Shown here in pieces: positions 10,960 through 61,180 of a DNA stretch of 64,000 bases. Source of the DNA: Siphonodentalium dalli (taxonomy: Eukaryota; Mollusca; Scaphopoda; Gadilida; Siphonodentaliidae); contig CP136063.1 of assembly GCA_032622095.1 (NCBI GenBank), positions 214,661,982 through 214,725,981 on the forward strand, written 5' to 3'. The position numbers and the translations under genes were made by a program. Position 1 is the first letter of the stretch, and each line of letters opens with the position of its first letter. The notes under the pieces are model-generated. The model saw nothing but the letters and a program-made list of their open reading frames with translations. It was not told the DNA's origin and did no database searches.

Positions 10960-12830
10960 TTGATTCATCGTATCATTTGAGAAGAACGTCTATGAATTTG
11001 ATGTTAATTGGCACTAAACATATTTCTATCAGTTTTCTATTTCGGACTCCAGCGGCGCCACATTTGACACCATTAAACCAAAAACTTGGACTCATTATTG
11101 GGATGAATATATATAACATTGTTGAAAATTGGCGAGTACACAAATTGGTAACAAATTTAGGGCCCCCATATCTCTCACCCAAACGGCACTAATTTGGCGT
11201 ATTTAAACCACGCGATTAGATTCCTCGTATCACAGAGAAGAATATATATCAGTCTGGTGGAAATCGGCGTTAAACATACTGTTTATCCATTTGTTATGTC
11301 TCTCTCACCGCTTGTGGACCCCTGTCTCGAATGGCACCACTTTTGACATCTTTAAACCACATCATTAGACTCCTGATATCATGGAGATAAATATTTATAC
11401 GTTTGGTGCCAATCGGCGACTAAACAAATTTTTTTTCTTCAAATTTGGTGCCCACCCCACACCCCACACAATCTCTCGCACAAACAGCACCAATATAGCG
11501 TCTTTAAATCACATGAATTGATTCCTCGTATCATGGATAAGAATGTGTATCAATTTGGTGGAAATTGGCGCTAAAATTATTGTGTATCAATTTTGGTGCC
11601 CCTCTCCTTTTCAGTGCAACCCTGACTCGAATGACGCCACTTTTAACAGTTTTAAGCTACACCATTAGACTCATCATACCATGAGGATGAGTTAGTATAA
11701 GTGTGGTAGCAATCGATGACTAAACCAATTCTTATCAAATTTAGTGCTTACCCCCCCCCCCCCCAATATCACATCAAAACAACACCAATTTGGTGTCTTT
11801 AAATCATACAATTAGATTCCTTGTAGCATGAAGAAGAATGTTTATTAATTTGGTGGAAATCGGCGGCAAAATTATTTGTATCAATGTTGGTGCCCCTCTC
11901 ACTTTCAGTGCACCCCTGACTCGACGGACGCCACTTTTGCCGGCTTTAAGCCACCCAATTAGACTCCTCATACCATGGGGATGATATTGCATAAGTGTGG
12001 TGGCAATTGGCGACTAAACCCATTCTTATCAAATTGAGTGCCCCTCCCACAATCTTTCATCCAAACGACAGCAATTTGGAGTCTTTAAATCACACGATAA
12101 GACTCCTCGTATTATGGATAAGAATGCGTATCACTTTGGTGGAAATTATTGCGTATCAATTGTGGTGCCCCTCTGCCTTTCAGTTCAACCCTGACTCGAA
12201 TGACGCCACTTTTGACAGATTTAAGCCACACCATTAGACTCCTCATGCCATGTGAATGATATTGCATAAGTGTGGTGGCAATCGGCGACTAAACCCATTC
12301 TTATAAAATTGAGTGCCCCTCCCACAATCGTTCATCCAAACGACAGCAAGTTGGAGTCTTTGAATCGCACAATTAGGTTCCTTGTATCATGGAGAAGAAT
12401 ATATATCAATTTGGTGGAAATCGGCATCCGTGCATCGTGCATCCCTGGCGCGAATGGCGCCACGTTTGACATATTTAAACAACACCATTAGATTCCTCAT
12501 ATCATGGAAATGATTATATAAATGTTTCGTGGCAATCGGCGGCAAATTTTTTTTCTACCCCTCCCCCTTTTCTACCCCTGACAACGGCATCACTTTAGAA
12601 AATTCTAACCCGCGCCATTATCTTTCTCGTAAAACGTTACCCCTAGTAGACCGTTGGTGCCATCTAGATGGTCCCTCGGTGCTAAACTTAGTTTATCAAT
12701 GTTGGTGCCCCTCTCCCCTTCCGTGCATCCCTGACTCGACCGGCGCCACTCTTGACATATTTAAACCAGACCATCAGATTCCTTATATCATGGGGATGAT
12801 TATATATAAGTTTCGTGGCAATCGGCGACA
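10960..12830 (+). repeat. tandem array, period about 275-310 bp
   Basis: Landmark phrases recur in order. TTTGGTGGAAAT-type sequence appears near 11,246, 11,557, 11,849, 12,136 and 12,411. GTGGCAATCGGCGACTAAAC-type sequence appears near 11,410, 11,704, 11,998, 12,273, 12,525 and 12,814. Each period consists of two related halves of about 145 bp, so the unit is a dimer. A cytosine homopolymer lies at 11,751-11,764. The short open frames inside follow the repeat and are not genes. The array is bordered by two similar CAGACAGA-bearing ends, at 10,798-10,925 and 12,895-13,033. Confidence 0.75.
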
Positions 12831-21652: not shown

Positions 21653-23035
21653 GTAGGTTTATAAATTCAACTTAGATTTACAAGCCGTATGGTCACCAGT
21701 GGCAGCGGTCGTTGCACACGAGTCACTACCCGTATTAAAATTAGCGCAGTACCAATATCTGCGCATCCATCGGTATGTCAATTTAATTTTAAATATAGAC
21801 GCAAAAAAATGCCTTCGCAGTAGTTACATGTGAAAAATTATAAAAACAAAATCGTATTAAAAAATCAGCCATCATTATCAAGAAGAAGTAATAGATAGAC
21901 TTTGTTCTTAATTCCATTATTAATAATTGCCCAATAACGAGAGTGTGCATGTTGAAACCATTCTTATTAAACATATGTCAGTTGTGTCATAAAACATCAT
22001 CAATGCATGGCAATTGTGATGCAAATAATATTTACTTGAAAATTATTGTTTTCAGAATATTTCTCAATATTTTCCGATTTCTAATGTCCATTTCATGATC
22101 TAATCGTCTTACCTGAAAAACCTATACTGCGTTCGGAGTAAGGGTACGTTCATACGCTGGCAATATTGCACTGCAAACTGCAAAACTGCCAGCTGCAAAT
22201 TTGCCAAAACCGATTATTTTCTGCCAGTTGTCAACAAATCAGCCTTAGTACGTAGTGATCATTAACAACAGTGGTTTTTTGCGTGGTTACTGATATCGCT
22301 GAGCTGTTTAAAATTTATTAAAACCACAGTGCGTGTTGGTATTCTTAGGCCAGTCAAAATAATGTCACTTGATATGCTCCATCTATGGGATGCTGCTGAT
22401 ATATGAGTAACATAAACGCCACATAGAGACAGATGTTGGGTCCGCACTTGCCTCAACGAAGATACCCGACGACTTTCCGACTTTCGAGAAATCCTATTGG
22501 TATACTCACCCGCTTTGTATTGTTGTTTTTCAACTGGTACCACAAGTTTCAAACTGTCGGTGGAAATTCCTAACCTAACATCCATGGTTGACAAATCACT
22601 CAAAACAATTACAACTGCATGCACGAAAAGTCCCCCTTGTAACACGGATACAATATATAATCTGAATCTGTATTATTAAACAATCCAACCATAGGAATTT
22701 CCATCATAACACCCCCTATGGTTGATAATTCTCAACTGATTGCTACATTTCAGTCCAAAAATTCGGTCTTTCGGTCTAAAAACAACACATATCCCACTTA
22801 ACTCGTTTAGGATGGGAAACGGATATATCCGTTTCCCACTTAAAACACTTGCTCTCAGCGAATGATTCTGTTATAATTAAATGTTTTGCGCATAGTATTC
22901 AATGAACTTGACGTCATTCAGGTCTGTTGATGTCCCTACTTACTTGCGCAATTTGCATATACAATTACGTCATGAAAGTAGTATTAACCTCCCAGAAATA
23001 AAATAAATACCCAAATAAATTATAAAACGTGAACC

Positions 23036-25548
23036 CTGGGTCCCTGGATGACAGCAGGCCTGATCAAATCGAGCATTGTGAAGCACTTTATGCAAAGAAT
23101 TGAAAACTACATCTACTCAAGACACAAATAAATACATGAATTATCGCCGACTTTACAGTAAACTCATAAGAAAGAGCAAAAAACTGTATTACTCGAGAAT
23201 AATGAAAGAGAACAAAAACGACATAAAACAAACTTGGAAAATACTTAAGGGAGCACTAAAATGAATGGTAGCACTATCAGTCATCCTAAAGTTGTATTTG
23301 ACAATGATGGCACTGAACTCACTAGACCCGACATAATTGCCGAAAAATTTAATGAATATTTCTCAAACATTGGTCGAAAAACCAGCCAAAGTATTGTGAA
23401 TGACAGCGATTCTGTAATTTCCGATTATCTCCGCAACAGAATAACTCACGACTTTACTATTACTCCAACAACAGTCCAAGAAATCACCCTTGCTTGCTTA
23501 TCAGTGAAGGGGAAAACTAGCATGGACTTTCAAGGAATAAACAATAAACTTATGAACGAAACGATCCAGATTTTAGCCCCTGCAATGGAACACATATTCA
23601 ATCTCTCATTCGAGCACGGTACAGTCCTCATCAAAATGAAGATAGCAAAGGTAGTCCCAATCCCAAAAACTGATAACTCACCCAAAATTTCCAATTATAG
23701 ACCAATAAGTATTCTTCCTCCATTTTCTAAACTCCTAGAAAAAATAATGCACAAACGATTGGTAGACTTTCTAAACGATTACAGCATCTTGTATAGACAT
23801 CAATATGGATTTCGTCCCAACCACTCAACTTTTCATCCAATTCTGCATCATATCGATCACGTTGCCAACAACAACGATAAACCAACAAAAGACTCTACAG
23901 TAGCCCTTTTCCTAGACCTATCAAAAGCATTCGACACCATCAATCATGACATATTGCTTTCCAAATTAGATCATTATGGCATTAGAGGCATTGCTCTTGG
24001 TTGGCTCCAAAGTTACCTAGAAAACAGACGACAATACGTTGAAATCCAGGGGGGGGAATCTTTATTACTAGACATAACGTGTGGAGTCCCACAGGGATCC
24101 ATCCTCGGGATGATAATTTTTTTAATTTACGCAAACGATATGCATAAGGCAACAACTATGGACATCTTATCACATGGAGACGATACCACCTTAATTGCAA
24201 GCGGAAATAGAGGGGAACTAGTGCAAAGTTACATTAACAACGAGTTACGTAACATTTTCGACTGGTGTTGCTGCAATAAGCTCGCGATAAACTCTGATAA
24301 AAGTAATTATATGCTTATTCACACAGAAAGCAATGACAAAAAAATGGAATACCATAACAATACCGTTAAATAACACTGAGTTAAAAAGAATTGGAAACCA
24401 TGGGCACGAATCTTCAAAAAAATTCTTAGGCATCCATATTGATGAAAACCTAACATTTAAAAAGCACATCTCATCGGTCTGCTCAAAATTGGCTCATGCA
24501 ATATACCACATCAACAAAATCAACAACTTGTTTCCCTAGTAGTGCACTAAAATCACTATATTATGCACTTATCCAAAGTCATTTGGTTTACGGAATTCAA
24601 ATATGGAGCCATGTTCCCGAAGTTAAAAAAAGTATTCCTGCTACAAAAAAGAGCCATACGAACCGTGTGCAATAAAAAGTTTAGGAGTCACACAGAACCG
24701 CTGTTTAAAAAAGAAAATATTTTGAAAGTATATGATCTTCACAAGGTCCACGCTACAATTTTTATACATGACTGGTATTATAATCGCCTACCTGGATCTT
24801 TTTTACAAATGTTTACTAAACGCACAACTGGACCTGTCACCAGGAATAAACAGCCTCTATTCCTCAAGAAACCTAGAACGTCATTCAGTGAACACCTGCC
24901 ATTTCACGCATTTCCCACCATATGGAACAACTTATAAAACGTGCGGCCTTAATTGTCGAAAATATTCATATTTGTTCCAATCACCGTAAACAGAAAAACA
25001 TTAAAACGCATACAGTTCCGTTCATATATACCATGACCATCGCGTACACAGCATGTTATCATAAAGACCTACTATATTTTACCCAAGCAAGAGCCTGATT
25101 GTGTTACAGAAGACAGCACAATGATACTGGCTAATAACACACAAATGGCATAAACGCTCTTTATTAGTTCCATATCAGGTATTCACCAACAAAGAACGCT
25201 CTTTATGTTAACCATCATAATATAAACAAACACCAGAAAAGTAACTTTTTATGCTTTTGTTTACATAACAATGGTCAAACATATGACCACAACATACTGT
25301 TTATGCGATATTTCTTATTTGTATACGGACAAAGTCTATCTAAATTTTGATGTTCTTTCTGTTTGTGGCGGTTTTTGACGGGTGGAGATATTTTCACAGG
25401 ATACCCACCGCCAAGGCCAACCGTGTCTTTAACATCTCAACAAAGTAGACACATACTTAAAAAACGTATTACGAAAAGCATGATAACCCAGTACTCTAAC
25501 AACGTCGAGTGCGAAAACAAAGGATGTCCTGATTGCCCCAACAACTGA
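23036..25548 (+). pseudogene. non-LTR retrotransposon reverse transcriptase, decayed
   Basis: The longest intact frame is 23,261-24,373 (370 codons). It shows the RT motifs in order: SNYRPISILPPFSKLLEK, YGFRPNHST, FLDLSKAFDTINHD (motif A aspartate), GVPQGSILG (motif B) and HGDD where F/Y-A-D-D is normal (motif C). Upstream (23,060-23,260) a linker read-through is broken by stops. No endonuclease domain is present, so the copy is 5' truncated. Downstream the frame shifts near 24,365, near 24,540 and again near 24,630. The C-terminal part is then cut at 24,932 by a MITE and resumes after 25,432 to end in a CPDCPNN tail at 25,548. The product is non-functional; in life it would copy its own RNA at a nicked target. 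Confidence 0.85.
24933..25432 (+). mobile_element. 500-bp TTAA-AGG MITE, copy inside the RT
   Basis: Matches 30,729-31,232 closely along its whole length. It interrupts the retrotransposon reading frame between a TIWNNL block and an ILKKRITKSM block. Ends correspond to TTAAAGGCACG and CGTACCTTTAA of the cleaner copy, here partly mutated. The interior has inverted GCTCTTTAT motifs. No coding sequence; the ORF predicted across its right edge is a chimera with the RT tail. Confidence 0.8.
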
Positions 25549-26588
25549 TATTAAATTAATAATATTAGATTAAAGACATAATAAAAATGTATATGCATTA
25601 TAAGTGTGTGTATATGTATGTATATATACGTATGTATATGTGCATGTGTATAGATATGTATATGTGCATTTATTATACTGGAAGATTATCCCTTAACCTC
25701 ATCCATTATTATACTGCTCGACAACCAGAATTAAAATTAATGATCATTCAATCACCTTCGTCGCGTAGTCACCCTTCTTACACAATGTTGAAGCCAACAC
25801 AATGCCCATCTATATATACCTGGTCCGTACACGGCTTATCCCATAGCCATCTAATATTAAGTACACACTTAAACAGGGGGTGGCAGGAAGACAGTCTATA
25901 TTGGACTAAGCCGTCCCCTCTCAATATACCACATAAATTTGTTATTGTTTATCTAGTTTATTCTATGTTATGTATGTATATGTGTATATTGGAAATAAAT
26001 TATCCTATCCTATCCCAAGCTACGTTGACCTAATAAAGCTAATTTGACGTAATAAACGTAACGTTTATTAGGCAGTATTTATGTAGGCAATAGAGGTAGT
26101 GATGGTGGATAAAGCCTCCCCCAATAGATGCTCAAATCCCCTCACGGGCATTAACAGTTTAAGCGACGACACTAGCTACATATTTTATATTTATCCACCG
26201 CTCACTACCTCTATTGACTTCATAAAACCTGCATCATAAACGTTACGTTTATTACGTCAATGTAGCTTCATTAGGTCAACTTAGCTTTATTAGGTTAGTA
26301 CTACTTTCGTGACGTAATTATATATGCAAATTGCGCAGGTAACTAGGGACGTTAATCGGCCTAAATGACGTCATTGAGATTTGAGAACGTTTTTATCTTC
26401 CATAATTCACTGTTATTGATACAAAATTCGTTAAAGGGTATACGTTTAGCTCTAAAACATCTATAAATCGTCAGAACAAGTTCGGCTAAGAATAACTGTA
26501 AAAAAGTCAACGGAACTATTTCGCTTTAAGCTGCACTCCGGTTTGCCTTGTCAGGAATACTAATTAGTGTGTATTTATTATATTGCAG

Positions 26589-27157: not shown

Positions 27158-27361
27158 TTGGGTTAGATCATGTCATGAATCTCTACTCTGGCTAACGCCC
27201 GTAGAGATCACATCCCACCAGTAAAAACACTTGGAACTTGTTTAAGTTTTGACAGAGACCCTTGTAAAGTCGATAAATAACGCGGGGAATATATTTATTA
27301 GTTATTATATATATCTACGGACGTTAGCCTGAGTAGAGATTCATGGCATGATCTAATGTTT
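27158..27361. mobile_element. MITE with TTAGATCATG ends
   Basis: Inverted arms of about 50 bp: TTAGATCATGTCATGAATCT on the left and its near complement on the right, both continuing through CTACTC and GGCTAACG. The interior is AT-rich. A shorter match to the arm (TCTATTCTGGCTACGCC) is seen near 2,574. Confidence 0.65.
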
Positions 27362-31232: not shown

Positions 31233-32006
31233 TTATAATGACTTCCCAATATGATCTTTACATAACAATCTGCAAGTCCCGAATCGGTCTGGATTGTGCG
31301 TTTTGAATTTTATGCTAGACAGATGTGTTAGAACAAGTTACATGTAGCTTGGTGTTGGACATTCGACATTCACTTAAACTTTCAAGAGGCCCAAGGCACG
31401 CACATGGGTGAATGCGTAAATATTATAATAGTCTAAACATCACCAGTGATTGACCACCAAAAGAATACGGAGAAATAGATAAACCTGTTTTCCTATATTC
31501 ATTATTGATACAGTAATCATCCAATAATGAAACCTCGCGTATTGAATCTATTGTTATGAAAACAAAACTGTTACAGTTATTTGTCAACAAATATCGCTAA
31601 AAATGTAGTAAATATAGAACAGGTAACTAGGGCCGTCGCTTAAACGGTTTATGTACGTGAGGAGGGATTTTAGCATCTATTGGACGAGGCTCTGCGGACA
31701 AAAAACGCTTAAGCGACAGCATTAGCTACATATTTTATTTATCCATCGCGCAAAACTTGCCTTTTCATTTTTCTAAGTTTTTCTTTCGTTACTTCGATGA
31801 CCGCATTACATTTATGAGGTCAAGCAAACTAATTATTATTCATGACCTGGCAAACCAAGGTGTAGCTTAGAGCGAAATAGTTCGTTGGCTTTTTTACAGT
31901 TATTGTTCTGATGATTTGGAGCTAAATTGATATACCCATTTATTATATGCTTCCCCATTAAATAGTGGGAAATTGCCAGTGGCGTAGAGCGTTATATCCA
32001 TCGCCT

Positions 32007-32072
32007 GGACCGACTCGATGGATAACATTGACCGACTCGATGGATAACACTGACCGACTCGATGGATAACAC
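32007..32072 (+). repeat. 22-bp repeat, three copies
   Basis: Three direct copies of GACCGACTCGATGGATAACA, nearly identical, inside the insertion that splits the foldback repeat. Confidence 0.85.
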
Positions 32073-32462
32073 AATAGTATTACTTTTTCGGAGATTACTT
32101 CCGGTTTATAGCGGCGAATCACATTAAGTTTCAAAGCGTATCAATAACAGCCGGACTATTGTTTTAATTATTGATTTTCACGGTTCATAAACTGTTATTT
32201 AATTGTTATAATGTTAACTCATTTGTTTTAATATATTCTTATCACTAAATTATGTATACATTAATTTTCTCGCATCATTTCAGAATAAAACAATGGGGAC
32301 TATTTCTTATGGCGGCTATGCTCGATATTTGTCATTCGGTGGTGAGCAAATCAATTGATGGAATGTAAACAAAATGCAAATGTCGAAGCTTTCTAACAAT
32401 TTGAAGTGAACTGTAGGACAAAATTAGCAGTTTTGGTGCGGTTTATAGCGCATATAATAAAA

Positions 32463-32628
32463 AGAAAACCTACGGGTTTTGGTTGATTACCCGGATTATC
32501 TCATTCGTGGGTGCAAGGAGGTACAGAATTTCCACTCGCGGCTTGCAGCCGCTCGTGGAAATTCTGTACTTCCTTGCACCCACTCATGAGATAATTCGGG
32601 TATTCAACCAAAACTCGTAGGTATTCTC
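32463..32628. repeat. 166-bp near-perfect palindrome
   Basis: Arms of about 80 bp (blocks GTGGGTGCAAGGA, TACAGAATTTCCAC) meet near 32,545 in CGCGGCTTGCAGCCGC. Few mismatches. It lies within the sequence that interrupts foldback copy 2. Confidence 0.85.
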
Positions 32629-32850
32629 TATTTACTAATGTTATAAACAACAGTGAATTATGGACGATACAAACGTTCTCAAATCACAATTACGTCATTT
32701 AGACCGGTTGACGTCCCTAGTTCCCAGCGCAATTTGCATATATAATTACGTCATGAAAGTAGTACTAACCTAATAAAACTACATTGATGTAATAAACGTA
32801 ACGTTTATGAGGCAGACGTTGTGTAGTCAATAGAGGTATTGAGCAGTGGA

Positions 32851-33532
32851 TAAATTCAAATATTTTACTATGAATATGATTTTCAGCATTTAATTTGATG
32901 TTTTTGACATTTGTCAACCTGTATTACATGTTGGTATCGTATTTAACTTATTGGTCTTGTATCGGTAATGTTTATATAACAACGGTTTTGACTTGCGAAA
33001 TCTCTCATTATTTGAGAGTTATTAACAATGAATAGAAGGTCGTCTATACTTGAGGTGATAGTTGTTTTAGACTTTATAAAATTGATGTAATTTGGCATGA
33101 ACCCACTTTGAATGCATGTAACGTTGATTCAGTTGATATTTTGGATTCTGTTTACCTATACAATTCGAACAACATGTGCAAATCCGTGGCTATTCTATAC
33201 TTGCAAGGAAAAATTGTCTATAAGTTGGTAACACCTTAAGGGTCAAGTGACCAATTTTGAATGGAGATTTCCATGAAAATCTGCGGTGCAAAAGCTACAA
33301 AGTTGCACATACATATGAGTGTGACTTGATGTGATATTGGAAACAACAGGTTTTTATCTGGCGGATCCGCTTGGAACTTGTTCCATTATTATTGCAAAAT
33401 GTTATAATTTATATGGCGTACCTGCCTGTTAAATATTATAACTGTTCAATGATGTGCCTGCTTTTGTTTTCGGACAACTGCTTTCTAGATTACTTTTTCT
33501 CTGGAGATTTGCATAGAAATGATGAAATAATA
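32851..33532. other. intergenic, nothing recognised
   Basis: AT-rich sequence with no repeat match inside the window and no convincing frame. Confidence 0.5.
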
Positions 33533-47083: not shown

Positions 47084-47240
47084 TAAGCATTCGGGTATGC
47101 TTATTTCGATCAAAAGAGTACAGGGGTTCAAATACGGGCACAATATTATGCGAAAAACTGGACTCATTCACTTCATCCCCGACCCCAGAGAACGATAGTA
47201 AGGCAGTGGACTCGGCAGTATAGATAGACATGTTTATCCA

Positions 47241-48476
47241 TATCTACATCTCACTACCTCTATTGCCTACATAAAGCCTGCCTAATAAACATTACGTTTA
47301 TTACGTCAAGGTAGCTTTATTAGGTTAGTACTACTTTTATGACGTAATTTGATATGCAAATTGCGCAGGTAACTAGGGACGTCAACCGGCCTTAATGACG
47401 TCATTGTGATTTCAGAACGTTCTTATCGTGTATAATTCACTAAAATAATTCGTAAAATGATATATGTTTTAGCTCTAAATCTATAAATCATCAGAACAAG
47501 GTCTGCTTATAATAAATGTAAAAATGCAAATGACAATTTCGCTCTAAGCTGCACTCCGGTTTTCACACGTCATGAATATTAATTGGTTTGCTTGACCTAA
47601 TAAATGTAATGGCGTCATCGAAGTAACGAATGTAAAACTGAGGAAAATGACAGATTTACCTCACAATAGGCAAGTTTGGTGCGATGGATAACTAAAATAT
47701 GTAGCAAATGTCATCGCTTAAACTGTTTATGTCCGCTCGGGGGATTTGTCATCTATTGGACTAGGCAGAGCCTCGCCCAATAGATGCTCAAATCCCCCTC
47801 ACGGACATAAACAATTTAAGCGACGACACTAGCTACATATTCTATATTTATCCACCGCTCACTACCTCTATTGCCTACATAAAGCCAGCCTAATAAACGT
47901 TAGGTTTATTACGTCAATGTAGCTTTATTAGTTCAACGTAGCTTTATTAGATTAGTACTACTTCCATGACGTAATTGCATATGCAAATTGCACATGTAAC
48001 TAGGGACGTCAACCGACCTAAATGACGTCATTGTGATTTTGGGACGTTTTTATCGTCCATAATTCACCGCAATTGATACAAAATTCGCAAACGGAAATGT
48101 GTTTTCGCTCTAAAACATCTACAAACATCTACAAACATCTACAAACATAGTACAAGGCCAGCTAATAATAACCTTAAAACAAACCAACGAACTATCGCTC
48201 TAAGTTGTCCTGTTTTTGCACGTCATGAATGCTAATTAGTTTGCTTGACCTAATAAATATATGGGCGTCATCGAAGTAATGAATGTAAAACTGAGGAAAA
48301 TGACAGATTTTACTAAATAAAATATGTAGCTAATGTTGTCGCTTAAACTGTTTATGTCCGCTCGGGGGATTTGGCATCTATTGGACTCGGCAGAGCTTCG
48401 CCCAATAGATGCTCCAATCTCCCTCACGAACATAAACAGTTTAAGCGACGACACTAGCTACATATTCTATATTTAA
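47241..48476 (+). repeat. large foldback repeat, tandem pair (copy 3)
   Basis: Two direct units of about 603 bp: CACTACCTCTATTGCCTACA occurs near 47,252 and again near 47,855. Each unit has a TTTATTACGTCAA region, a GCAAATTGCGCAGGTAACTA region, a CGCTCTAAG region and a hairpin formed by TTAAACTGTTTATGTCCG and its complement. The first hairpin spans about 47,710-47,830. The block near 47,826-47,850 contains the sequence shared with the 49.7-kb satellite. ACATCTACAA is repeated four times near 48,114-48,145. Confidence 0.75.
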
Positions 48477-49227: not shown

Positions 49228-49395
49228 CTTAAATGTGGAGACGGTCATTCCCAGAACCTTGGTATAGAAATCAATCGAACGATCGATGTCCTTGACGGTG
49301 ATAACGAAATGATCGAGGCGGTCTATGGTGAATGCCGACATCAGTCTTGTGTAAATTGGAACTGTCGTCTGCGTCGCCGCTCGCCATAGTGGAAC
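49228..49395 (-). CDS. GLOD5: glyoxalase-domain protein GLOD5, upstream exon
   Basis: The donor is AAG/GTGAGT at 49,227. From the ATG at 49,341 the exon gives 38 codons, including RLDHFVITVKDIDRSIDFY and LGMTVSTFK, the first VOC module; histidine 11 is the usual first metal ligand (family knowledge). This start gives a 133-residue protein. The frame stays open for 18 more codons up to an acceptor-like TTTCATTTAG at 49,396-49,405, adding VPLWRAATQTTVPIYTRL, which has arginines, many hydroxyl residues and no acidic ones. That looks like part of a mitochondrial presequence, so an upstream exon with the true start is likely but not found. An out-of-frame ATG (GCGAGC) near 49,386 is therefore probably not the start. 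Confidence 0.85.
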
Positions 49396-49717
49396 CTAAA
49401 TGAAATACACATTGTTTACTATGAAAATATAACGTGCATATCGTATGTCGAGTCACGTATACTGGTGCCATTCGATCAGATCAAGGTGTGTCATGATAAC
49501 CTTGGCATTAATTCACCATAATGTTTAAAGAATTATTGTGGACGTATTTCAGTGTATAAAACTGACAATTTAGTACCAAAACAATATTGCCGATGGACGA
49601 CTGTAACAATCAACTACGATTGTCGAAAATTCCAATCACATATAGACTGTGCTGTATTTCAGAGAACACAACGTCTGATCTTTGCACAAATGTAATTATT
49701 TACTCCCTTGTTCGGGA

Positions 49718-51488
49718 CGAATTATTGGGTGATATATATATAGAATATGTAGCTAGACTATATAGTAAAGTGTCGTCGAATTATTGTGTGATATATACAG
49801 AATATGTAGCTAGACTATATAGTAAAGTGTCGTCGAATTATTGGGTGATATATATAGAATATGTAGCTGGACTATATAGTAAAGTGTCGTCGAATTATTG
49901 GGTGATGTATATAGAATATGTAGCTGGACTATATAGTAAAGTGTCGTCGAATTATTGTGTGATATATATAGAATATGTAGCTAGACTATATAGTAAAGTG
50001 TCGTCGAATTATTGGGTGATGTATATAGAATATGTAGCTGGACTATATAGTAAAGTGTCGTCGAATTATTGGGTGATATATATAGAATATGTAGCTGGAC
50101 TATATAGTAAAGTGTCGTCGAATTATTGGGTGATATATATAGAATATGTAGCTAGACTATATAGTAAAGTGTCGTCGAATTATTGGGTGATATATATATA
50201 GAATATGTAGCTAGACTATATAGTAAAGTGTCGTCGAATTATTGGGTGATATATATGTATAGAATATTTAGCTAGACTATATAGTAAAGTGTCGTCGAAT
50301 TATTGGGTGATATATATATATAGAATATGTAGCTAGACTATATAGTAAAGTGTCGTCGAATTATTGGGTGATATATATAGAATATGTAGCTAGACTATAT
50401 AGTAAAGTGTCGTCGAATTATTGGGTGATATATATAGAATATGTAGCTAGACTATATAGTAAAGTGTCGTCGAATTATTGGGTGATATATATAGAATATG
50501 TAGCTGGACTATATAGTAAAGTGTCGTCGAATTATTGGGTGATATATATATATATAGAATATGTAGCTAGACTATATAGTAAAGTGTCGTCGAATTATTG
50601 GGTGATATATATATAGAATATGTAGCTAGACTATATAGTAAAGTGTCGTCGAATTATTGGGTGATATATATAGAATATGTAGCTGCACTATATAGTAAAG
50701 TGTCGTCGAATTATTGGGTGATATATATATATATAGAATATGTAGCTAGACTATATAGTCAAGTGTCGTCGAATTATTGGGTGATATATATATAGAATAT
50801 GTAGCTAGACTATATAGTAAAGTGTCGTCGAATTATTGGGTGATATATATAGAATATGTAGCTAGACTATATAGTAAAGTGTCGTCGAATTATTGGGTGA
50901 TATATATATATATATAGAATATGTAGCTGGACTATATAGTAAAGTGTCGTCGAATTATTGGGTGATATATATAGAATACGTAGCTAGACTATATAGTAAA
51001 GTGTCGTCGAATTATTGGGTGATATATATATAGAATATGTAGCTAGACTATATAGTAAAGTGTCGTCGAATTATTGGGTGATATATATATATATAGAATA
51101 TGTAGCTGGACTATATAGTAAAGTGTCGTCGAATTATTGGGTCATATATATATATAGAATATGTAGCTGGACTATATAGTAAAGTGTAGTCGAATTATTG
51201 GGTGATATATATATATAGAATATGTAGCTAGACTATATAGTAAAGTGTCGTCGAATTATTGGGTGATATATATATATAGAATATGTAGCTAGACTATATA
51301 GTAAAGTGTCGTCGAATTATTGGGTGATATATATATATAGAATATGTAGATAGACTATATAGTAAAGTGTCGTCGAATTATTGGGTGATATATATTATAT
51401 AGAATATGTAGCTAGACTATATAGTAAAGTGTCGTCGAATTATTGGGTGATATATATAGAATACGTAGCTAGACTATATAGTGTCGTC
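49718..51488 (+). repeat. 57-bp satellite array, about 30 units
   Basis: The unit is ATATAGAATATGTAGCTAG, then ACTATATAGTAAA, GTGTCGTCG and AATTATTGGGTGATAT. The basic length of 57 bp varies with the number of TA steps to about 65 bp. Units are highly alike, so homogenisation is recent. Because 57 is a multiple of three, the array creates long frames repeating YSKVSSNYWVIYIEYVA; these are not genes. The right end passes without a break into a foldback repeat copy at GTGTCGTCGCTTAAACTG. Confidence 0.95.
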
Positions 51489-52100
51489 GCTTAAACTGTG
51501 TATGTCCGTGAGGGATATTTGAGCATCTATTGGGCGAGGCTCTGCCGAGTCCAATAGATGCCAAACCCCCCGAGCGGAAATAAACAGTTTAAGCGACATT
51601 GGCTACATATTTTATTTATCCATCCCACAAAACTTGCCTTTTGTGAAGTAAATCTTCATTGTCTCAGTTTTACGTTCGTTATTTTGTTGACGCTCCTGCA
51701 TGTATTAGGTCAAGCAAACTAATTAGCATCCATGAGGTTCAAAAAACGGAGTGCAGCTTAGAGCGAAATAGTTCGTTAGTTAAGTTTGTTTTATAGTTAT
51801 TCTAAGCTGGCGTTGTATTAATAGTTTACATATGTTTTAGAGCGAAACACATATGCGTTTACGAATTGTGTATCAACTGGGGTGAATTATGGACGATAAA
51901 ACGTCCCAAAAGTTACAATGACGTCATTTAGGTCGTTTGACGGTCCTAGTTACCTGCGCAATTTGCATATTCATTTACGTCATGAAAGTAGTACTAACCT
52001 AATACAGCTATGTTGACCTAATAAAGCTACATTGACGTAATAAACGTAACGTGTATTATACAGGCGTTAAGGCAATAGATGTAGTGAGCGCTGGATAAAT
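51481..52100 (-). repeat. large foldback repeat, copy 4, joined to the satellite
   Basis: Begins inside the central hairpin (GTCGTCGCTTAAACTG) and runs through the family blocks to GTAGTACTAACCTAATACAG, then AATAAACGTAACG and GGATAAAT. The arm expected on the left is absent; the satellite stands in its place. Confidence 0.75.
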
Positions 52101-54592
52101 ATAAGGTAATGATTCCGCGAACAATATTCACTGCATGTACATCCTTTATAACAATGATGTTGTTTTCTGGCTATTATTAAATCAAATTTATGAAAATAAC
52201 TAATTTGGGGAAAATTATTTGCTATTCTGTCCTAAATAAACGGAGTGTGCCACATCACTTTAACCGATGTAGCCTTATTGGGGTTTGTATGCCAACATGT
52301 TCAGTGCCGCAACCATCAGCAGTGCATTATTATGTGGTTAACAACCCCACCTCAGTCCACCAACAATGCCAAAACTTAGATAACGACGGACAAAACCACA
52401 ACCGAGTGCCCGAAAATACACACTTAAAGCCACAATACATTTATTAGAGTAATTACCTTTTAATGGCTCACTTAATTTTCTACCCTCCATATCACATTAT
52501 ATAAAATATTTGTCATAGCATATACCATCTGGACTGTTCTGCAAAGTCTACTATTTTCAATGGAAGGGGAATAACTCGGTATCTCAGTCTGAATTATGTT
52601 GCATTCTGGGAGCGAAGTGGGGGAAATGTTTCTGTGATTTCAGCTATTTTCTATTACTCTATGGGCACCTTCTGAGACACAGACGTTCCAAATGGTGATA
52701 AATTATAGCATGTTAATCATATTTAGTCATATATTGCTATTAAAACCGTAATCATGGCACTATAAAAAACATAATCGCGCCTTTTGGGAATGGCCTTCAC
52801 TTTATACATGTTATACTCTTTTAAAGGATGAAATCTTGTTTATTTGATTTGTACATCATATCTAAATAATTTAAACTGGCGAATTAATGGGGGTGTATTT
52901 TTTTGGGAGTGCGAAATTTATTTAACTACTGAGCCGCGGTACTTCTCTGTGTTTCTAGGCAAAAGTTTGCTGCGGGATAGCTCGGACACCTGTGGATATA
53001 TTTTAAAAAGTGAGCACATGGCCTATGGTTTTTCTTGCATTTTCTTGGTAAACATCACGGGAGTGGCCGGCATGGACTTGATGTGTGTGACTTGGTATAT
53101 GATTTGCGGACATCGTCAATGTATACGCTTTGCAAAGGTATTGAGGACATATGCACGGACACTGGTTATCAACCAAAGAAATTGAAACTTGTGACGTGTG
53201 GGTTTCCCCCAGTTCCGCACTGGCGCAACATCCGCGCAACAACATTATATATTAATGTATAATGGAAGCATGAAGAGCACGTTAGCTTGATAATTGATTT
53301 ATAAGAGTTGAGCTCTCGGCGTTCCGTAGATCTGGTGAAGAATAATTATGCTTTATATCGGTGTCGGCTGGGTACACATCAAATGCTGAGTGTGTGTCGC
53401 GACAGGTCCGACAGGGTAACCAAACAGCTCACAGATCCATGCCCGTCTTTTTGTTTGGGACTATTTGTATTCGATGTTATCATATATACATATAACGTCA
53501 CCTTAAAAGGAACTCGTGTTGGCTAGGAAATGTATGTAATACCACATTGTACTCACTGTATGTTGATAATTCGTCCCAAGGAAAATATGTCCTAACCGTC
53601 GACAGGCAGGGAGCGCCATTTTATGTCGGATGTGTCGCGGGTGGTTGACCTACGGGCGAGTTTGACGATAAACCTCGCTTCAGTAACACATGTTGATATG
53701 CGAGTGCACGTGTGTGTGACTGGGAAAAGCCCATACGTCACAAATTTCAGTTTTGTATTGATCGTCACGCGCTGGTTATATTTCGAGGAAATGTGTTTCA
53801 TACTTCCGCGCACATGTGCACTTATCAGCTTATTTGAAGTAATTTCCGTGTTGTATTTAGCTTTAACATATTGTGTTCCCAATGATAGTGACTGTGTGTA
53901 CATCCTAGATTAATTTAAATTATAATAGCACTTGGCACAAGAAGGGGGTCGGTAAAAAACATTCTGGCACGTGTGAAACTAAAGACTTGTTTTCACCTTT
54001 GATAACAAATTTTTGGACTCACCCACCCCTCGACCCAAAAATGTTTCCATTTTAACAAGTTGTTTTTTTCCGACGATTTTCGACGTCATACATTGCTCGA
54101 AAATTGCAGCAAGGTGTCTCGAAGTGAGTGCTCGCTGTTTTCTTTACCTATATATAAAACAAACTCAACCAAATGAGCTATTTATCAGTTTTTCAAGCTC
54201 ACAATGAAAGCCGTGATTCCCAATCCCATATAAATATTTTAGTGTTCAAGAGACTGAATTCGGTTACCATGTTCGAGGTTGTGAAATTTTAACGCCAAAA
54301 TTTCCTTAATACGATTCTGTTCTATATCCGATTTTTGAAGTATCCACGATGAGTTATTGGGAGAGCTCATTAGTCCAATATATAGATTGTTGATATCTCT
54401 CAAAAATATAGAAAAACACGAATGTTGAAATTTAGAGGAATTTAACCATAAAATTGTCTAGCCTGCAGAGCGGTTCGCAAAAATACTATCTGCGTCCAAA
54501 TGTGGGTACCCACCATAATTTCGGGTATCAAAGCCGCAGATCGAGATGTCGTCAAACCAGATCTGGGATGTCAAAGATGCTAATGATATACT
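52101..54592. other. intergenic, possible GLOD5 5' flank, no gene recognised
   Basis: Frames at 52,190-52,447 and 53,592-53,913 have no known domain; the latter is open on both strands. A loose copy of the 469-bp repeat lies at 52,819-53,066. If GLOD5 has a further 5' exon it should lie here or beyond, but I cannot pick it out. Confidence 0.45.
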
Positions 54593-60425: not shown

Positions 60426-60789
60426 TCCTACTCTTTTATGTATACATATTCCTACTCTTTATGTATATAGATTCCTACTCTTTCTATATATAGATTCCTA
60501 CTCTTTATGTATATAGATTCCTACTCTTTTATGTATATAGCTTCCTACTCATTTATATATATATATATATTGCTACTCTTTTATGTGTTAGATTGCCACT
60601 CTTTTATGTATATAGATTCCTATATTTGTATGTATATAGATTCCTACACTTTTATGTATATAGATTGCTACTCTTTTATGTATATATATTCCTACTCTTT
60701 ATGTATATAGATTCCCACTCTTTTATGTATATAGATTCCTACTCTTTATGTATATAGATTGCTACTCTTTGTGTATATATATTCCTACT

Positions 60790-60860
<71 letters not shown>

Positions 60861-61180
60861 CTATATATATATATTGCTACTCTTTATGTAAATAGATTGC
60901 TACTCTTTTATGTATATAGATTGCTACTATTTTATATGTATAGATTGCTACTCATTTGTATATATAGATTCCTACTGTTTTATGTATATAGATTACTATT
61001 CTTTTATGTGTATAGATTGCTACTCTTTTATGTGTATAGAATGCTACTCTTTTATGCGTATAGATTGCCACTCTTTTGTGTGTATATATTTCTACTCTTT
61101 TATGTATATATATTTTATGCATATAGATTTTATGTATAGATTTTATGTATATAAATTTTATGTATATAGATTGCTACAAG
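60426..61180 (+). repeat. 23-bp minisatellite with a (TA)n core
   Basis: CTACTCTTTTATGTATATAGATT repeats about thirty times with changes. A pure (TA)n run of about 65 bp lies near 60,796-60,860. Frames repeating YVYRLLLF or MYIDCYSF are by-products. Confidence 0.92.

Follow-up and report, generated by a model that had tools for sequence, protein, structure and literature searches.

A 57-bp tandem array at the left edge of a foldback transposon copy in Siphonodentalium dalli, probably formed in place

The closest precedent for the locus described here is Tetris of Drosophila virilis, a non-autonomous foldback element with arm repeats from which the TIR-220 satellite arrays arose (PMC4079207). 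According to the accessible part of that report, an element arm gave rise to tandem repeats and these to longer satellite-like arrays, with unequal crossing-over proposed for the growth, as is also considered here; any special tendency of foldback elements towards satellite formation was left undecided there (PMC4079207). The TIR-220 repeats are approximately 220 bp long and internal to the Tetris arms, whereas the unit at the present locus measures 57 bp and lies at the very edge of the element, apparently with some host flank. As for TIR-220, this unit is homologous to an element arm and the array is contiguous with a copy; unlike in Tetris, the arms of the other copies in the window (the whole 64-kb stretch that was analysed) carry no such repeats (0 of 4).

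Tandem repeats derived from transposable elements (TEs) have been catalogued in the human genome, where, in the accessible part of the survey, 7,276 were recorded, 6,817 of them with neither direct repeats at their flanks nor an incomplete terminal repeat (PMC3389668). They resemble the present case in local tandem duplication within TE copies and in the gradual expansion described for them, but arose in human TEs, and most of the 6,817 have only two units; units straddling a TE edge are not discussed in that part of the survey. The maize repeats CRM1TR and CRM4TR likewise derive from one part of a TE, and illegitimate recombination with at most trinucleotide homology, followed by local growth, was proposed for them (PMC3648361, accessible part). 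These differ in that the source is an LTR retrotransposon, the unit spans LTR and UTR, the loci are centromeric or pericentromeric, and growth is attributed to gene conversion. End-joining and recombination models for TE-derived repeats are covered by the accessible part of a review (PMC9659126). In the open-licence literature, as far as its texts were accessible, no report of a satellite unit straddling a foldback edge was found.

In bivalves, short satellite-like arrays are tied to small non-autonomous elements of the MITE and Helentron kinds, and abrupt satellite edges occur in molluscs, in the accessible parts of two reports (PMC7492417; PMC5139131). The repeats of bivalve Helentrons are central and travel with the element (PMC5139131, accessible part), whereas no other copy in the window has the 57-bp repeats. 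In non-autonomous Helentrons (HINEs) the central repeats lie between conserved ends; here, the array sits at the outer left edge of one foldback copy, and 4 of 4 other copies are without it. Non-autonomous Helentrons insert at T-T and have a typical 3' end.

The initial annotation of the S. dalli sequence described a 57-bp satellite, and this was recovered by Tandem Repeats Finder with a period of 57, 29.8 copies and 93% matches at 49718-51482. The array is approximately 1.8 kb long and comprises 30 units when cut at CGAATTATTG. The features of the array and its junction are as follows.

49718-51489, plus strand: tandem array of 29 full units (57-65 bp each) and, at 51436-51489, a partial one running into foldback copy c1
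49720-49735, plus strand: upstream, flank-like third of the first unit, starting AATTATTGGGTGATA, without significant homologue in other copies (left-edge alignment, shuffle tests)
51473-51481, plus strand: 9-bp insertion ACTATATAG in the left arm of c1 (arm alignment, unit comparison, window search)

The full units were 57 bp (13 units), 59 bp (5), 61 bp (6), 63 bp (3), 62 bp (1) or 65 bp (1) in length. A TA tract was the sole source of this variation, the remainder being 49 bp in 29 of 29, and the consensus core outside the tract was matched exactly by 14 of the 29. The left edge of the array is sharp at 49718, where the flanking DNA ends in TTGTTCGGGA. At the right end, 51489, TCGTCG continues as CTTAAA, and the thirtieth unit passes unbroken into CTTAAACTG. 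In the 57-bp consensus, positions of approximately 18-37 together with 52-57 correspond to the element end, 38-51 to the insertion, and approximately 3-17 to AATTATTGGGTGATA. The array has no fold of its own (z 0.13 for two units), and no function is indicated for it. Approximately 0.4 kb from the array start, which lies upstream of it, is a predicted glyoxalase-domain coding exon (49230-49341, minus strand; Pfam Glyoxalase, E 1.4e-9), followed by a GT splice donor as judged by eye; glyoxalase domain-containing protein 5 (3zw5) is among its matches in PDB. This exon with its donor, and a LINE-like reverse transcriptase elsewhere in the window, are eukaryote-like features.

Comparison of the c1 region (51461-52200) with the window by BLAST gave further pieces, which were grouped by us into four other copies; on this grouping, the family has five copies in 64 kb.

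51453-52104, plus strand: foldback copy c1, hairpin and tail, both ends approximate, its left end being the proposed template of the array (BLAST against the window, alignment)
51458-51617, plus strand: hairpin of c1, left arm at approximately 51458-51521 and right arm at approximately 51562-51617, with the inverted repeat 51486-51521/51562-51597
47855-48476, minus strand: foldback copy c2, without array (BLAST, alignment)
47240-47851, minus strand: foldback copy c3, in tandem with c2, without array (inverted repeat, BLAST, alignment)
31610-32855, plus strand: foldback copy c4, broken by approximately 0.76 kb at about 31887-32652, without array (BLAST, alignment)
22909-26544, minus strand: foldback copy c5, divided by a LINE-like insertion (approximately 22991-26013), without array (BLAST)

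The element is approximately 0.6 kb long, and no coding frame was noticed in it. In c1, c2 and c3, a palindrome of approximately 160 bp, with long inverted arms capable of forming a hairpin, is followed by a tail of approximately 450-490 bp. The palindrome is shortened in c4 and partial in c5, a rearranged copy in which tail parts are inverted around part of a hairpin. Folded as single-stranded DNA, the 176-base stretch containing the c1 palindrome (51450-51625) reached -42.9 kcal/mol, with a z-score of -10.65 against 200 shuffles. The tail terminus GGATAAAT is present in c1, c2, c4 and c5 and decayed in c3. As TAAATA was found before the hairpin of c2-c5 alike, it is likely to be element sequence. 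No clean target site duplication was seen by eye around the element ends, which were placed within a few bases. Neither Rfam families at gathering score nor tRNAs (ARAGORN) were detected in the window, so that nothing points to a tRNA-derived SINE.

Small tandem duplications seem to arise readily in this family. A 19-bp tail stretch is doubled in c1, c2 and c5 (51997-52044, 47896-47950 and 26251-26295) and single in c3 and c4, and a 10-bp unit occurs about four times in c2 (48109-48148). Copies c2 and c3 (47240-48476, minus strand) lie head to tail with a spacing of approximately 625 bp, one tail end being joined to the beginning of the following hairpin. Within the interruption of c4 (31887-32652), a 22-bp unit is repeated three times (32008-32072), and a separate long inverted repeat was seen by eye at approximately 32480-32610. 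The LINE-like element (22991-26013, plus strand, ends placed by eye) has a reverse transcriptase frame at 23249-24373 (Pfam RVT_1, E 6.4e-30), ends in TATCC repeats and was apparently inserted into the tail of c5. A foldback-like inverted repeat with 46-bp arms, 91% complementary, is located at 27163-27356, outside the BLAST matches of the c1 element. Elsewhere in the window, a 275-bp unit is repeated about 4.4 times with 78% matches (11163-12425), and a second array (60426-61114) has a 24-bp unit about 29 times and a long TA tract (60792-60874); BLAST of the 57-bp unit against this second array gave weak TA-rich matches only.

The last partial unit of the 57-bp array is the left arm of c1, so that the array is directly contiguous with the element and in the same register. 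The CTTAAA join after TCGTCG recurs in three other copies, c2, c3 and c5. The initial annotation had the array flow into a foldback copy at 51,480 and regarded the left arm of this copy as missing. Continuity is indeed unbroken, but the array ends at 51489, and the arm is present, made up of the end of the last partial unit and 51482-51521, and pairs with the right arm. Two short blocks of the unit had been described as adjacent in other copies near 47826-47850 and 26180, and were located together there; in the element they overlap by one G, and the net gap between them is 14 bases in the unit, rather than the 13 extra bases first counted, and 9 in the c1 arm.

Nine arms, five left and four right, were aligned. 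An ungapped GTAGCTAGTGTCGTCGCTTAAA is present in the left arms of c2, c3 and c5; the left arm of c4 has a decayed version, and that of c1 reads GTAGCTAG ACTATATAG TGTCGTCGCTTAAA. The insertion ACTATATAG was present in 30 of 30 units, the thirtieth being c1's own arm, and was absent from the 8 other aligned arms and from any further site on either strand of the window. It is followed by AGTAAAGTG in 28 of the 29 full units and by AGTCAAGTG in unit 18. Relative to the c1 arm, the full units thus have about five extra bases, TAAAG, exact in 28 of 29. Only one of the five copies in the window carries the array, and c2-c5 have neither the array nor the insertion (0 of 4). Since the array has an insertion that, of the copies compared, only c1 carries, and since the register is unbroken, c1's own left end is the likely template.

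Alignment of the doubled unit with the left arms of c2, c3 and c5 scored better in each case than all 2000 dinucleotide shuffles, while 73 of 2000 shuffles aligned equally well with the diverged arm of c4. With the two shared blocks masked, the best score was 15 against every arm, under the means of 17-21 for unmasked shuffles. Chance similarity was rejected on the alignments of unit and arm against shuffles; the foldback origin initially preferred to chance is well supported by the common register, the direct continuity and the presence of the c1-private insertion in all 30 units.

The upstream third of the unit presents a different picture. The sequence AATTATTGGGTGATA (approximately positions 3-17) was absent from the window outside the array and did not match the left flanks of c2 and c4, and over roughly its initial 15-18 bp the unit did not significantly match the left end of other copies. 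When the 318 bp upstream of the array were compared with the element, similarity did not exceed that of shuffles in any of the six direct-orientation comparisons; of the six in reverse, two ranked at 20 and 11 among 200 shuffles, a result that we attribute to chance, given twelve tests. As the upstream third is without significant element homology, the simplest reading of the sequence is that approximately one third of the unit is flank and two thirds element end plus insertion; the unit would then straddle the element edge and include some neighbouring DNA. The expansion inside the element suggested by the initial annotation accordingly holds for the element-end part (about two thirds, with the insertion) and not for the remaining third or so, which appears to be upstream DNA. 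Apart from this point and the arm taken to be missing, the initial interpretation is sound in essence. If this third is host flank, the empty site would read GTTCGGGACGAATTATTGGGTGATA, closely followed by AGGTAATGATTCC.

Outside the TA tract, the units differed by a mean of 2.2% in pairwise comparison, whereas the ten pairs of element copies diverged by 12.8-18.9% (with c4 taken without its interruption and c5 represented by its minus-strand tail only). As unit divergence is low relative to that of the old element copies, the array is either younger than the element or homogenised. Unless reset by homogenisation, the array would postdate the c1 insertion by a wide margin. Units resembled their third neighbour (21 of 5000 permutations as good, P ~0.004), a signal that is modest after correction for the best of 10 lags (208 of 5000, ~0.04). 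The first and second halves of the array differed (9 of 5000 permutations), TA length increased rightward (Spearman 0.57, P 0.001), and the unit lengths 63-59-57 occurred twice in succession at units 15-20; runs of units identical in both core and TA length were not significant (210 of 2000). Stepwise duplication would give a resemblance between third neighbours, and the lag-3 signal agrees with it. Insertion of one uniform concatemer fits less well than local duplication of single units or small groups of them. At the duplication junction two bases (CG) are shared; since random breakpoints attain as much in 17.8% of trials, a homology-driven start is not indicated.

The array most likely formed in place, through local duplications where the single copy c1 has its left edge. 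In the sequence of events that we infer, c1 would have come to adjoin AATTATTGGGTGATA, and its left arm would have acquired ACTATATAG as a short insertion, perhaps together with TAAAG. Tandem duplication would then have affected a segment that began in the flank and crossed the element edge as far as TCGTCG, joining TCGTCG to AATTATT. The array may have reached 30 copies through successive local duplications, each of one or a few units, by slippage or unequal exchange, and the TA tract would have changed in length independently while the array grew. As the c1 arm and the units differ by five bases, one extra event is needed. Other points against an origin in place are that a single array was seen, at one locus, that the c4 arm alone gave no clear match to the unit, and that homogenisation could equally make an old array appear young. 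If the array did arise in place, AATTATTGGGTG would adjoin GTTCGGGACG at the empty site.

A different source for the first third of the unit would be the decayed end of a second copy, with c1 lying downstream in a tandem pair comparable to c2-c3 and the unit deriving from a junction of tail end and hairpin start. The tail end GCGGTGGATAAATA does stand directly before the hairpin start at the c2-c3 junction and in c5, where the unit has GGGTGATATATA, and the match of the unit at c3 was lengthened by BLAST to 28 bp at 93%. However, when GGTGATA was compared with the tail end GGTGGATA, with the TATATATAG end fixed, controls did equally well in 872 of 5000 cases for the c2 end and in 1023 of 5000 for the c5 end, and nothing tail-like was found further upstream in direct orientation. 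A tail remnant upstream of the array was rejected on these controls, and the paired origin is retained as an unlikely rival. More doubtful still is a mobile subfamily, in which foldback copies elsewhere would carry and spread the same left-end repeats in the manner of repeat-carrying MITEs and Helentrons. Such mobile elements are known, from the accessible parts of two reports (PMC7492417; PMC5139131), and the family has the other short tandem duplications, of 19 bp in its tails and of 10 bp in c2, but the window's four other copies have neither the array nor the private insertion. A search of viral_contigs with an exact 34-base stretch of the unit gave no match, which argues against a mobile subfamily only weakly, the collection being viral; searches for relatives by exact pattern likewise gave 0 matches in viral_contigs and genome_contigs, collections that are viral and prokaryotic, so that this has little weight.

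It is very improbable that the similarity is coincidental or that the satellite is older and was the target of a foldback insertion. The DNA at the left end of the array is without significant direct-orientation similarity to the element, as an older satellite would allow; yet the unit holds the element's arm in the register of the run-in, and the private insertion is common to c1 and the array. A pre-existing satellite hit by the element was rejected on these grounds. A repetitive protein, for which a unit of 57 bp (3 x 19) and a stop-to-stop frame of 211 codons spanning the first units (49566-50201) might speak, is almost certainly not encoded: the length is a multiple of three in only 16 of the 29 full units, and no Pfam family exceeded its cut-off.

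Formation in place at the edge of c1 would make this array, most likely, a clear and well-preserved single example of a known event, the generation of satellite-like DNA by mobile elements. As foldback-derived satellites have already been published (PMC4079207, accessible part), what the locus adds is no new principle but an instructive case, together with the testable prediction of edge-straddling units. A more general proposal, which we consider rather unlikely, is that foldback insertions act as local satellite nurseries, the strong hairpin just inside the edge stalling replication and triggering tandem duplication of the edge; among the open-licence titles retrieved, none concerned such a replication-stalling role of the hairpin. 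If so, new units would be part transposon end and part captured host flank, differing for each insertion site. A satellite seems to be preserved here with its founding junction, still joined to its source; the template copy, a private mutation that marks it, both edges of the array and low divergence are visible at one place. Such a case makes the first duplication step open to study.
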